Positions 4,845 to 62,584 of a stretch of DNA of 64,000 nucleotides are shown in pieces (positions within the stretch are counted from its first letter, which is position 1; every line of letters starts with the position of its first letter). Source of the DNA: Halichondria panicea. Its lineage: Eukaryota > Porifera > Demospongiae > Suberitida > Halichondriidae. The notes under the pieces are model-generated. The model had not been told where the DNA came from. It was given only the letters and a program-made list of their open reading frames with translations, and did not search any database. The stretch covers positions 5,575,205-5,639,204 of the forward strand of contig NC_087378.1 of the NCBI RefSeq assembly GCF_963675165.1, written 5' to 3'. The translations under genes were made by a program, and so were the position numbers.

Positions 4845-7800
4845 CTATGTTGCTTTTATCTTAGTACGTGGTTCCAGTTCATTCTCATACTCTATCTCAA
4901 CTCTTGCTTTTGCACGAGTCCTCTTCTTCCCAACTGTAATAGGTTCCTCCTCCTCACTCTCGCTGCTCACGTCTACCTCACTCTTCTCCCAGTCCTGCAT
5001 GGGGTTATTAGCAGTGTGTTCCTGTATATAATTATATACATGTTATGTGACATGCAGATTACACTGTATGTGTCCAGATGTTCGTTCCTGTTCAAAATCA
5101 GACATCATAATACTACACTCGACGGACGGTCTTTATTTACTCATACAGCTACAACATGTTCACTTCAGTGAGAAACTTTACTGTACATATAATACGTACT
5201 TCAATGTCCTCATCACTCTCTTCAATGTCATCAGCTGCCACAAACTCTGGCCCGTCGAGCTCTTCCTCCTATAATTATAATGAACAGTAAGTTGAGAGTG
5301 TCTTTGTAACAGCAGGCACATGATTCCTTGATGACCAGTTAAAACTTAGCGATTTCCCATGCATACAGCGCCACCCATAAATGTGTATGTAAAGAAGGCT
5401 TGTTTGAGATATCAAGACAATCATCTTTGCATCTCTACTTCCTTCACACTTCTGAACAGTTGTCTGGCCCATAGCTAGTTTACAGTGCATGTACGTATGA
5501 AGCTATATTGAGCTAGACCACGCCCATTTTAGAAAAAATGTCTAGCTGTAGAACAATGGTTCAGCTACATGTACATACGTAGCTAAAGTCCATTTTGTGT
5601 TGAGTTCGACCTTCATAAAGTTGTTGTAACTTTGTCATACTTCCCTGATATTAACGTTTCTTATACCATTGGATTCCTTGTTAATATGCGCTTCTCTATC
5701 TAAGATGACCAGTTAAAACTTAGCAATTTCCCATGCATGTAGAAGAGGTTCCTAAAGTCTATTTGTGTTGAGTTCGACCCCGGAAGTTATGTGGTAAATT
5801 ATGGCTTCATTTATGCGGTGGACAAGTATGCCTGGGACTACTACATGGAAAATGCTAACTATTTTAGCTGGTTGGAGTTTACCAGCTCTACAGCATAATA
5901 GATAGAAGCGCTTTTTAACAAGGAACCCAATGGTATACAAAACTTTAAAGTATGACAAAGTTATGATAACTTTATGAAGGTCAAAGTCAACACAAATAGA
6001 CTTTAGCTGGCATACTTACTTGTCAACCACATAACATTTTTATGGCGCTGTAATTACATCAATTACGTATGGTTATTTTCAAGACAAAAATTAAATTATT
6101 TGTCAGTGTACTTAATTGTTATACAGTAGACCCTCGCTAATCCGAATACAGTAGACTCTCGCTAATCCGAATAGAGCAGGACCAGACTCCATGTCTCCAT
6201 CCGAAATTTCCGGATTAACACATGTCCTAAGTATCTGAATAAGCGAAGACGCTTGTATACATATGGTATTATGAATATGCTATTACTATGGCCAGAAGGG
6301 AAGGAAGCTGCTAGTAGAGTGAGTCTTGTGAGCTCTCTTAGTCCTTGATCTCAGTAGCCATTGTACTGTGAGTATGTTATTAATTATTGCTGCTTCAGCA
6401 AAGCAAGTTAGAGTGCACATGCGCAAGTAGTCTATTCTACTGATATGCCCCTCCTCTTCATTTTGTCTGGATTTGAGAGGTTCGGACTAAAGGGGGCCAG
6501 GATCTATTATATATGCATTAATAATTATTGTAGAATTAATAAGCAAATCAAACCATAATTGTTGGATCAAGGGCGAGATACAGAGCTGCAACAACTATTG
6601 TTACAACAAAATTATTATTCCGAGCGAAGCGAGGCTATAACCGGGCTAGGTTCAATCGAGATCAACGGTGGTGGTAGTAGTGGTAGTGGTAGTGGTGGTT
6701 GGTCGATTAAAACTAGCTCCAGTTGCTCTCCAGTCAAAACTCAGCACAGGTACTCTATATCAACGCTATACTCTCTAAACGACTTCTCATCCCACAGTGA
6801 AGCTCTGCACGGCCGTTAGTGAACTTACTTCAACTATGGTTCTTACCATGACGATCCACCACAAAAACGATCATTACACAAACATTTCCAGCTAGCTGCT
6901 TCTCTACCCTAGCGCTTCTATCTAAACTCACAATGCGTAGTGTACATCAACACTACTCTGGCCCACTTCTGATCTCACACCCGGCCACTTCTGATCTCAC
7001 AAAGAGGGCTGTCTTTATTGAATACACAATCCTAACACAATCCTAGCTTTCTTATGTGCCGATCATTACAACATCTTCACATTAATTTGAATGTCGTCAT
7101 AAGCCAAGCAAATGGACTGAGCAAGGACCTTGCACCATGTGTACGCCTAGTTATAGTTATGCAACCGTGACTTAATCACCATAATCATAATTATATATAA
7201 TTATATAGTGCATAATTATAGCTGAAGTATCACTACTTAACGGACTTAACAAGCACACCGTGCAGATCGACTAATTACATTGGACCCCGAAATATAAGGC
7301 TAGAAACACAGGACACACAAAAACATAAGTAACAGAAGAAATTATAACTACATTGTACAAGTAGAAAAACTACGGTTTTGTTTACTACAAAAAGTGTAAA
7401 ACCCAAAAATAATCTACAACTACGGATTTATAGCAAACAGCTAGAGTACAAAAACTACTGTACTTGTCTTCTGTACTTGTCTTTTGAATTGAATTGTATT
7501 ACATTTGATCTTCCTTGTGCATACTGTCGCCTTCCTCAATTTCAACAAAGGTTGTAGTTACATTACGTGGAGCCGCAATCACAACAGGAGGTGGTGAATA
7601 ATCGTGAGAGGTAAGTGGAGCAAGAATGTCTAGAGATGGCTCTCTCAATTGGTGAATGCATCTGTTTGGTAAAGCTAGAAGTTGAGGCGAATCAGACCTT
7701 CCTTCTCTGCTAACTATAGGAACATCAGACATTAGAGTCTTTCTTCGGATTTTGATGCTGAAGTTAACTTTATGAAGATTCGCATCTTACCAAAACAGTA

Positions 7801-56241: not shown

Positions 56242-56395
56242 ATTCCACCATAGCCTCGATCCCAGGCCGATCCGTCTCTAATTGAACGCTAGGTCGCCTC
56301 CTCGGCCTGGTATTGATTGTATCTGGGCGTGTATCTGGGCGTGACTTCGTTATTATTATTAGTCCATGTGGTCAAATGAAAATTGAATAAAATTA

Positions 56396-57011
56396 ATGAT
56401 GGCTTCTAAGTTTGTTCTTTGTAGGTTATGTTGCAGCACTGATGCCATACAAAACAGAAGATATAAACATTTGTTCAGCAGTAAGGCTCTCAAAGAAGAT
56501 ATTCCAGGGAGGCTCAGTCTTGCATTGGATCTGCCTGTTAGTGATTCAGATGGCCTGTCAAAGATTGTCTGTCTTTCTTGTATCAAGAAGATAGAGTCCA
56601 TAGAGGTGTTCAGGCTCCTGGCCAGACGTAGCTACCAGAAACAAGTGTCCAAAGAGCAGCTCCCTAGTAGTCCAGTAAGATCAGCCCCTAAGAAAAGGAC
56701 TAAGGACACGAGTGGTTCCGACGCATCTCCTTTCACTGTGAGCTCACGTCCATCAGCAAAGAGGAGTACCATCGGGGTTCGAGGAAAAAGGCTTGCTTTT
56801 ACTCCTGCACAAAGTAGGAAATTTTTAATGTGATAGTGTTGTAAATAAAATTATTTTTTTAGCTCACATTGATGGTCCACATAATGCCAGTGCCTCGACA
56901 TCATCTGCAATCGCTGTGGAGCTAGAGGGTAGGTCAGAAACTATCCAGTTTGCAGCCAACATTGGAGCACCAGGAGGGGCAAATGCTCTAAGCTCACCTA
57001 GGTGTGCATAG
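56396..57011 (+). CDS. ZAD-type zinc-finger protein, truncated, in mobile element
   Basis: Exon 1 56396-56813 and exon 2 56863-57011 join in phase (CAA A|CT CAC) for 188 aa. Residues about 8-72 fit the ZAD fold: CRLC at the start, HLFS, three helices with IPGRLSLALDLPVSDSDGL, and CLSC about 50 residues later, giving the C2..C2 zinc site. A basic Ser-rich stretch follows (PKKRTKDTSG, GKRLAFTP). ZAD domains are protein-binding or dimerising modules, usually ahead of DNA-binding zinc fingers; none follow here. The last 20 or so residues (AANIGAPGGANAL) read through the antisense of the helicase gene, so the natural C-terminus is missing. The paralogue in the element at 60672 is decayed. Confidence 0.68.
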
Positions 57012-57595
57012 GCAGGACGAAAGTCAGAGCTCCTACAGAACATACATAATAATCACAACGGGAGTTATTAATAACTTACCACTTGTAAACACAGTGTGCT
57101 TCGTCCACAGCTATTGCCACTAAAGAGGAATTGAGTGGAGGCTCTAGTAATAGCATCCTCCAACGATAGTCTTCAACAACAGCCTCTGGGGCAGTGAACA
57201 GCAGACGGTACTTTCCATCCGACACATCTTTGTTAGTGGCAACAAGACTTCTGTCGATTCCCTTATTACTACTGAGGATGGCAGCAGAAACACCTCTAGT
57301 GTTCAGACTCCTGGTCAATCATGAGAGACACAAGGGGAGAGATGACAAGAACTACACTTCTGGCGACAAGAGGACCCTTAGTCCTACCAAGCTTGTAGTC
57401 CATCAAGAAGGGTAGCAATTGATAGCACAGAGACTTGCCATACCCAGTTGGGAACCACACAAAAACGTCCCTTCCTTCTGACAGGAGCTTGAGAGCACGG
57501 ACCTGCTGTTCCTTGAGGATCAGTCCTTCTTGCTTCACACAAGACAGTGCATACGCTAATGCTTCTTGGATATCAAAAGACGTTGAAATTGCCAT
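56950..57595 (-). pseudogene. RecQ-family helicase fragment in mobile element
   Basis: Starts MAISTSFDIQEALAYALSC at 57595. Motif 0 is LKEQQVRAL, motif I (Walker A) FPTGYGKSLCYQ, motif Ia VISPLVSLMIDQ and motif II VDEAHCVYKW. An intron (57079 down to 57033) follows, then SDFRPAYAHLGELRAFAPPG and the start of the motif III region (PMLAA), where recognisable helicase stops at about 56950. A frame change between LMIDQ and SLNTRGVSAAIL (57304-57310) breaks the frame. Motifs IV-VI, the RQC and the HRDC regions are absent. The order of motifs identifies superfamily 2, RecQ type (3'-5' DNA unwinding in complete members). This copy cannot encode an active enzyme. Confidence 0.85.
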
Positions 57596-57821
57596 AGTAG
57601 TAGCTAGCTAGCTTTACGGAGCTATTCATGAGATTACAATTACTTTTACGGAGTAGGTGCTCATACATACACCATTAGTGTTAAGTCGCTCAGGAATTCG
57701 CTCTTTTTTAGCGAATACCTGAGCGAGGTGGAGCCAATAAGAGCACGCCCAGATACACGCCCCAGGCCGAGGAGGCGACCTAGCGTTCAATTAGAGACGG
57801 ATCGGCCTGGGATCGAGGCTA

Positions 57822-58336
57822 ATTCCACCATAGATACAACAGTTTCTCTCTTGACTTCTATATCTATGATTCCAAATTACTTGAGAGCTGAGCCAGTGAT
57901 GCTATTGGAGCATCCCCACAACAATTTACATCTTCTATGTAGGAAAACATGGAGGAAGATATGTATTGTTGTCTTTGCACTGAAAATTGTGTGCTTTATA
58001 CTTTATAATTATTGTGAATTCACAAAATTTTGCCTCCTTTGGCGACCAGCCGCTTGGGGATAACGCCGCCATGTTTTGTCTTGAAATTTGGCTGAGAAAG
58101 TAAGTTGCAAATATGGCGATATAGCTATGCACAACATCGATTGTCTTACAGGCAGATCCAACATTGCAGAGCTGCATCAAAGCATTTAACTCTTATAGGT
58201 ATAAGCATGAGTAACTTGAAAGGTAAATCTTCCTTCACTTTGATAGAATAATAATGCAAACAATTTTGCTACTTTGATACAGAGTCTTTGCATGCATGCA
58301 GTCTCTTTGATGCTTTGTATATATAACTAATAGAGC
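57822..58336. other. Stretch between mobile elements
   Basis: Starts with the right copy of the 9-bp target repeat. Open frames at 57728-58063 and 57935-58180 partly overlap the element end and show no family resemblance. I see no gene here. Confidence 0.4.
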
Positions 58337-60671: not shown

Positions 60672-62030
60672 TAGCCTCGATCCCAGGCCGATCCGTCTCT
60701 AATTGAACGCTAGGTCGCCTCTCGGCCTGGTATTGATTGTATCTGGGCGTGACCGGAAACTGGTATGTATCTGGGCGTGACCGGAAACTGGTAAGTATCA
60801 GCTATGTACTGTAACATCTTCAGTTCATCACAGTTGGCTAAAAATACAGCGATATAATGATATAATGACACTAGAAATTAATACTGTGCACAGCAGTACT
60901 GCGTCCATAATAAATGCAGATGTTTAGAAGTGAAGATCTCAAACAAGAGCTTCCAGAAAGACTTAATAATTACTGCGCCTTCAGGTGGCATAACAAAGAT
61001 TGTGTGTTCACAGTGCATCAAGAGACAGTAGAATCCTGACGTCACTGGTCAGGATAGCAACCACAAGTGTTGAAAGAGCCATTCCATGTCAGTAGTTTTA
61101 GTGCAGGTAGTTCTATAAGATCGGACCCTTGGGAAGGACACGAGTGGCACTGGGGCATCCTCTTTCAATAAGTTCGCACCCATCAGCTAGGAGGAGTACG
61201 ACAGGGGTTGGAGGGGAAGGTTCCATTTTGCTCCTGTATACAAATTAGTATGAACTTAAATTCACCATTCCACTACACATTTTGTAACTCACAGTGATGG
61301 TCCACACAAAACTAGCCACGATCCCAGGCCGCACTTCCTTGAAGGTCGGTGAAGGAGGCTAACACAACACCAGTGCCAGTGCCGTAATGTCATATCTTGA
61401 TCCAGATACCAAGGATTGGGCTATAGGCTATAGTGTACAATTTCCAATGATGAAAGGGTATTATTGATTTATATCGCTCACCTTGACAATACATCCCAGG
61501 CCCAGCCACTTGTGGACACCCCTGAGCATAGTATACAAGAGATCGATGGCCAGAGTCTGAGGATAGATTCTACCAAGTGTATCTGGCAATCAATGGTCTA
61601 ATCAAGCGCTTGTATTAAATTGTGTAGTCAATCAAAAGTAGCCACTGATAGCAGAAACTTGAGAACCTAGGTCTGTTCTTTCACAAGAGTGATGCTCCTT
61701 CTTCCTTTGCACAAGACAGCTCCTCACACTCTAGCTAGCTAAGCCTATATCTACATATTATATGTCTATGACAAACTAAACTTGCAAAGAATAGACCTAT
61801 GACACGGAGTTCTTTGTGATTTAACGGTGATTTTACGGAGTAAGTATGCTTACATACACTATTAGTGTTTCTATTCCCTCCACCTTGCTCAGGTATTCGC
61901 TCTTTTTTAGCGAATACCTGAGCAACCACAGCAACCACATGCCCAGATACACGCCCAGATACAATCAATACCAGGCCGAGGAGGCGACCTAGCGTTCAAT
62001 TAGAGACGGATCGGCCTGGGATCGAGGCTA
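60672..62030. mobile_element. Decayed relative of the ZAD + RecQ element
   Basis: Flanked by exact TGCTCAGAC (60663-60671 and 62031-62039). The ends match those of 56251-57821 almost base for base, including the internal hairpin. The conserved CTCAGGTATTCGCT..AGCGAATACCTGAG palindrome is at 61890-61924. The inside keeps ruins of the ZAD gene (GGCATAACAAAGATTGTGTG at about 60991, reading GITKIVCSQCIK, and the motif near 61200) and of the helicase start (about 61660-61720). A stretch at 61385-61640 is absent from the other copy. No intact frame. Confidence 0.88.
61313..61361. mobile_element. 49-bp minimal TAG..CTA element nested in a relative
   Basis: TAGCCACGATCCCAGGCCGC...GGTGAAGGAGGCTA lies between ACACAAAAC (61304-61312) and ACACAACAC (61362-61370), an 8/9 match. 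The sister element at 56251 shows the unoccupied site at the same place (GGTCCACATAATGCCAGTGC), so the insertion is directly visible. Confidence 0.82.
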
Positions 62031-62517
62031 TGCTCAGACTAGCAATACATAGGTAGTTTTTTAAAAAGGGGGGGCTTCAGCCCCTCAAAATCACCCCTGG
62101 ATCCGCCCCTGCCTCAAGAGCACAGTTTGCTACAAACTATTAATATCTTTACTGACATTTTGAGTGCACACACCCCTTTTTGCTCATTACACGCCCCTTT
62201 TTAGCAACTCGCCTCATACAACGGAAGTGCTGTGTGTTGCCTCCCTTTCTTTCGTGTATCTATGCTTTAATTAACTAGTTATTGACTGGTTGACTAGTAA
62301 TTATGGCTTATAACCAACCAATGCCGAGGGCGTAGTTATAAACCAGTACCAGTCAACAACTGATTTATTTACTGCAAAAACAGCAAAACAGTCATTTGAA
62401 CATCAATGGAGACAGTCAAGCTTGCTCTCACAGCCACTTTGTGCCTCAGAATATGCAGTTAGAACAGTTACAACTGTCAAGTATGAGAGCTAGCTACTTC
62501 TAAGTTCTCCAAGCAGC

Positions 62518-62575
62518 TAGCCTCGAGACCAGGCCGATTAAAATACGTATTTTAATCGGCCTGGATTCGAGGCTA
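62518..62575. mobile_element. 58-bp palindromic TAG..CTA element, 9-bp duplication
   Basis: TAGCCTCGAGACCAGGCCGA, then TTAAAATACGTATTTTAA as a perfect centre, then TCGGCCTGGATTCGAGGCTA. It is flanked by exact CCAAGCAGC (62509-62517 and 62576-62584). It is only two ends joined, with the CAGGCCG..CGGCCTG stem shared by the larger relatives. Confidence 0.92.
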
Positions 62576-62584
62576 CCAAGCAGC

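Follow-up and report, generated by a model that had tools for sequence, protein, structure and literature searches.

In PMC10045372, AcademH transposons are described as making target-site duplications of 9 or 10 bp and AcademX transposons of 3 or 4 bp, and this difference is tied to the presence of a helicase versus a nuclease. AcademH is presented as low-copy in three fungal phyla in PMC10799480, and its report from animals and fungi is stated by the title of Kojima 2020 (Mob DNA 11:15), as given in the reference lists of PMC10045372, PMC10799480 and PMC12210899. RecQ is also found in KolobokH, which the excerpt of PMC9587614 describes only from fungi and with RecQ downstream of the transposase domain, and in Kolobok-1_CCri, where RecQ lies on the complementary strand.

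Here, a 64,000-nucleotide stretch of DNA from the sponge Halichondria panicea (the window) was analysed, and its transposon ends and encoded peptides were searched in the 131-Mb, 39-contig assembly of the genome. We hold with good confidence that the segment at 56251-57821 is an internally deleted and probably non-autonomous DNA transposon whose long relatives carry a ZAD-DUF6589 gene (taken as the transposase) convergent with a RecQ gene, and which is best filed with AcademH by its helicase and repeat length. This reading builds on what was observed: the ends, duplications of 9–10 bp, the genes that the long relatives carry, a deletion junction common to several loci, and close copies elsewhere.

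Results

Structure of the Element in the Window

The 60-bp inverted ends, the exact 9-bp target repeats and the ZAD and RecQ genes pointing at each other, which had been proposed from the sequence in the original prediction, were confirmed: the arms are 100% complementary, and Pfam recognized PF07776 in the ZAD exon (E 4.6e-7, 30.4 bits vs a cut-off of 28) and PF00270 (DEAD) in the helicase fragment (E 1.1e-8, 35.4 bits vs a cut-off of 26). The ZAD gene (+) and the helicase gene (-) are convergent, and both are incomplete, each running into the junction at 56950-56953. The features are listed below.

56242..56250, no strand: left target repeat ATTCCACCA, exact 9 bp, abutting the left end
56251..56310, + strand: left terminal inverted repeat, 60 bp, 100% complementary to 57762-57821
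56262..56310, + strand: inner inverted pair within the left end, CCAGGCCGA (56262-56270) pairing with TCGGCCTGG (56302-56310)
56399..56813, + strand: first coding exon, ZAD domain (PF07776) and conserved linker, splice sites placed by eye
56814..56862, + strand: putative intron, 49 bp, GT..AG, predicted from the sequence; the frame resumes from 56863 onward
56950..56953, no strand: internal deletion junction, common TTGC
56954..57595, - strand: RecQ helicase gene, truncated and frame-broken, putative exon borders
57762..57821, - strand: right terminal inverted repeat, 60 bp, perfect partner of the left arm
57822..57830, no strand: right target repeat ATTCCACCA, exact 9 bp, abutting the right end
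60672..62030, no strand: another member of the family in the window, 1359 bp, non-autonomous, 9-bp repeat TGCTCAGAC
62518..62575, no strand: mini-element, 58 bp, near-palindromic, built from two ends, with 9-bp repeat CCAAGCAGC (62509-62517, 62576-62584)

The start codon of the ZAD exon, as read by eye, is at 56399 (or 56396). The helicase gene comprises part of a second exon and then a first exon ending AVDEAHCVYKW, with putative exon borders, and its frame is broken into two reading frames of the minus strand (57296-57607 and 57076-57318). A further 19-nt inverted pair lies inside the 60-nt arms. The direct repeat can also be listed as 12 bp, because the TAG at the start of the element recurs by chance after the right 9-bp repeat. 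The cysteine pairs of the window ZAD (CxxC...CxxC) recur in other families, and no PDB match was found for the ZAD domain by sequence. Copies of 1.3 kb like that at 60672-62030 also recur, containing only decayed ZAD-like sequence.

Family Size and Long Relatives

The outermost 23 bp of the end gave 401 + 396 matches in the genome (≤2 mismatches), compared with 0 + 0 for a reversed control pattern, and therefore the ends of the window copy are not due to chance, given 797 matches against none. The first 43 bp gave 254 + 256 matches (≤3 mismatches; control 0). The ZAD peptide of the window was matched 111 times, with an open ZAD exon retained in many copies, and the helicase peptide at least 150 times (150 scored among 721 candidates).

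Larger elements elsewhere in the genome, expected to encode ZAD, the helicase and probably a transposase, were indeed found: four long relatives of about 5–6 kb (L072, the C14 copy, L073 and L074) share TAGCCTCGA ends, both present in each of them, and each carries ZAD-type and DUF6589-type exons in one orientation, with RecQ exons on the opposite strand, those of L074 being identified by likeness to other copies and not by Pfam. L072 (6092 bp) has the same first 20 end bases as the window copy, the C14 copy is joined from L065 and L070, and L073 and L074 measure 5821 and 5066 bp, respectively; L072 and L074 appear decayed. Their target repeats span 8–10 bp: 9 bp in the C14 copy (GTGTTTACC) and L073, 10 bp in L072 and 8 bp in L074.

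The longest close relative, the C4 copy (L046+L069), has an irregular far end; more of the helicase is retained in it than in the window copy, and it also seems to keep the C-terminal end of the transposase.

Several further arrangements were observed. Between ZAD and DUF6589 in L072 (2453-2953) lies an unrelated-looking insert with a frame that, by eye, resembles part of an Ulp1-type protease. A second, distinct RecQ-like exon adjoins the C1 copy (L076+L067 joined, 6855-7391), hinting at several RecQ groups in the genome. At G000 C3:3625995-3637427, the ZAD, DUF6589 and RecQ matches belonging to one element enclose a further long DUF6589 frame of 1617 aa, and the two may be nested, one in the other.

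Internal Deletion and Spread

A stretch of the C4 copy, bounded by two points sharing TTGC, is missing from the window copy, in which these points are joined at 56950-56953. The 120 bp around this junction are unbroken at 14 other loci with 90–100% identity; therefore, the deletion predates the spread of the shortened copy. BLAST of the DNA loci aligned the whole element at seven other loci (95.3–98.5%), and L042 is identical to the window copy over 1463 bp. The window copy is internally deleted and probably non-autonomous.

The KP element is known to repress P elements, and the shortened copies might likewise persist through repression of transposition by their truncated ZAD protein; the open ZAD exon kept in many copies would allow this. 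However, the distinct changes in 19 copies of this exon comprised 23 that alter the amino acid and 7 that are silent (ratio 0.98), the pattern of a sequence free of selection, which makes a repressor very improbable. For helicase exon 1, 11 changing versus 6 silent changes were counted in 18 copies (ratio 0.60). Thus, there was no sign of selection keeping the truncated ZAD protein in these small counts.

Target-Site Repeats

Among 43 distinct inward end pairs at the fetched loci, the repeat was 9 bp in 18, 10 bp in three, 8 bp in one and 7 bp in one; the 20 pairs with none include wrong pairings, such as the C14 copy paired with an internal motif, and the true right end of that copy gives a 9-bp repeat. 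Exact 9- or 10-bp repeats were thus present in 21 of the 43 pairs, compared with 1 of 1806 mismatched flank combinations (one reached 9 bp and none 10). The target repeats, of 9–10 bp, vary in sequence from site to site.

Linkage of ZAD, DUF6589 and RecQ

Recurrent ZAD–RecQ linkage, a check named in the original prediction, was seen among the listed matches within 9 kb downstream of ZAD: RecQ was present at 31 of the 53 chosen ZAD places and convergent in all 31, DUF6589 was present at 22 of 53 and on the same strand in all 22, and both were present at 7 of 53. This count used 53 of the 111 ZAD matches, 46 of the 150 scored RecQ matches and 62 of the 92 DUF6589 matches; those left out were mostly low-identity multi-stop ZAD matches and second fragments, low-identity repeated RecQ matches, and second exons or further DUF6589 matches, and at least one of them (C1:9093896) is an extra same-strand neighbour. 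DUF6589 was not among the listed matches within 9 kb downstream at any of the 20 ZAD places at least 89% identical to the window ZAD, and the subfamily of the window copy therefore yielded no complete member.

Gene order and orientation stay the same in families whose likeness is only about 40–60%. Because they recur jointly in several diverged families, ZAD and RecQ appear to belong to the core genes of the element and not to be cargo picked up by chance.

DUF6589 as the Probable Transposase

In the C14b copy, Pfam identified DUF6589 in two exons (E 1.6e-11 and 1.2e-29) and no family in the third; a Mutator family was not found in the three exons of this one copy, in which the only match besides DUF6589 was a sub-cut-off one to CorA. 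Exon-level DUF6589 matches numbered 92 in the host genome and were absent from 14 of 14 control genomes.

These data bear on the idea that the element is Mutator-like and took up its ZAD and RecQ genes from the host. Repeats of 9 bp are typical of Mutator-like elements and flank most copies here, and gene pieces would be expected after such capture. Nevertheless, the constant gene order and orientation across such diverged families, the occurrence of 10-bp repeats, and the DUF6589 assignment of the C14b exons in place of any Mutator family leave capture hardly credible.

The DUF6589 part is probably the transposase, a reading to which the evidence for an RNase H-like fold with D, D and E contributes weakly: D/D/E residues are conserved, yet several other acidic residues are conserved equally; the structure models are of low confidence with low Z; and Foldseek gave no significant match. 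The best full-length annotated transposase relative is P0121 (41% identity over 97% of the query), labelled Em0007g1424a in EukProt, presumably from the sponge Ephydatia muelleri. The linker following ZAD in the window (KKRTKDTSG...) is 57% identical to P0121 over 37 residues, and the matching linker precedes DUF6589 within a single gene model. From this sequence comparison, ZAD appears to head the DUF6589 transposase as one gene. ZAD was not recognised in P0121, the single Ephydatia-type gene model, which starts with an integrase-type zinc-binding stretch and has pieces of DUF6589 missing; for these reasons, the gene model may be faulty.

A separate 1732-aa uninterrupted frame (L079+L077+L078; G000 C9:1648694-1653889) contains DUF6589 (E 4e-14) and a TSO1-like cysteine-rich tail at a sub-cut-off E of 0.006. 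By eye, its C-terminal part has what we take to be FEN/XPG-like motifs; neither Pfam nor PDB confirmed a nuclease in this protein, which is perhaps an AcademX-type relative.

Identity of the Helicase

The spliced helicase of the C14 copy (449 aa) matched WRN best in PDB (E 1.9e-47), followed at lower ranks by RECQ1, BLM and bacterial RecQ. It has the loop HKWSADFRP after DEAH, and SF2 motifs I–VI are present, as judged by their patterns.

Inner Inverted Pairs and Mini-Elements

An inner pair, typically CCAGGCC..GGCCTGG at 11–14 bp from the tip, is kept in many end types, with a spacer that varies from family to family and, in L073, even from one end to the other. Stems of 9–10 bp located 11–14 bases from the tip were observed at the ends of the window copies, of L073 and at the C14 right end, and were reached in 1–12 of 1000 shuffles. 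In L072, the CCAGGCC/GGCCTGG stem is 7 bp and the longest stem is located elsewhere; no strong stem was found 11–14 bases from the tip in L074 or at the C14 left end. The z-scores of single-strand folding were -2.38 for the window, -2.95 for L072, -4.32 for L073 left, -0.26 for L074 and -3.42 for C14 right. In 25 of 50 distinct end types, the stem was reached by no more than 10 of 200 shuffles.

The 58-bp near-palindrome of two ends (folding z-score -12.59) gave 72 matches (≤3 mismatches), which correspond to 59 places because 13 places were listed on both strands; 18 are identical to that in the window. Such mini-elements lie at 62518-62575 of the window and at L080-L102. In the 23 of the 59 that were examined, all flanks differ, and the 9-bp repeat is exact in 15, has one mismatch in five and more than one in three, compared with mismatched flank combinations, none of whose 506 exceeds 5. 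A 45-bp form (L018 725-769) and a 40-bp form (L026 999-1038) also have exact 9-bp repeats, and these forms may have shrunk after insertion. Human MADE1 is a short palindromic MITE of about 80 bp derived from mariner; the mini-elements resemble it in consisting almost only of two transposon ends, and differ from it in their 58-bp length and 9-bp repeats. Judging by the 58-bp mini-elements, about 29 bp or fewer per end may be enough for the enzyme.

Conceivably, the element moves other than by ordinary pairing of two double-stranded ends, through RecQ-assisted recognition of a folded, partly single-stranded hairpin end. We regard this as doubtful; if true, it would explain both the helicase in the core gene set and the mobility of very short elements.

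Discussion

In the mechanism that we prefer, DUF6589 would act as a DDE transposase, and the ZAD-DUF6589 protein would bind the ends and join them to target strands staggered by 9–10 bp. ZAD may promote dimerisation of the transposase at the paired CCAGGCC/GGCCTGG motifs in each end, and RecQ may unwind the ends or aid repair. The shortened copies would be moved in trans, borrowing the transposase and the helicase.

This study provides the gene set and anatomy of a helicase-bearing Academ-type element in a sponge and suggests a transposase function for DUF6589, an unnamed Pfam family. ZAD is best known from insect transcription factors. Finding it in front of a probable transposase allows a test of whether ZAD proteins arose from transposons, as with the THAP and BED domains.

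Concerning known systems, Kolobok-1_CCri resembles the sponge element in carrying RecQ on the opposite strand. The target repeat of Kolobok is TTAA, in contrast to the 9–10-bp repeats without fixed sequence of the sponge element, and an assignment to Kolobok or KolobokH fails on this TTAA rule. AcademX may be similar through a related transposase, since DUF6589 also occurs in the 1732-aa protein with FEN/XPG-like motifs (by eye). However, the AcademX repeats are 3–4 bp and those of the ZAD–RecQ elements are 8–10 bp, and the exact 9- or 10-bp repeats in 21 of 43 pairs do not fit an assignment to AcademX.

A separate, undescribed superfamily would have a ZAD-DUF6589 transposase unrelated to Academ, and would share RecQ and the 9–10-bp repeats with AcademH by convergence. 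DUF6589 was not found in the literature searched, and, by the excerpt of PMC9587614, RecQ is present in one further superfamily at least, Kolobok. As the helicase and the 9–10-bp repeats both match published AcademH traits, we consider a separate superfamily unlikely.

The original prediction had held that Academ target repeats are shorter and had named no described element that pairs ZAD with RecQ and a 9-bp repeat. According to the excerpt of PMC10045372, the former is true of AcademX (3 or 4 bp) and not of AcademH (9 or 10 bp), and the argument for novelty is not supported, since a helicase-bearing AcademH with 9- or 10-bp repeats is already published there and thus a known family accounts for the helicase and the repeat length. 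The sponge element may differ from AcademH in its apparently ZAD-headed transposase and its inner inverted pairs. The two traits compared, an encoded helicase and 9- or 10-bp target repeats, are both present in the sponge element as in AcademH, and the element is therefore best filed, as a probable member, with AcademH and not as a new kind.
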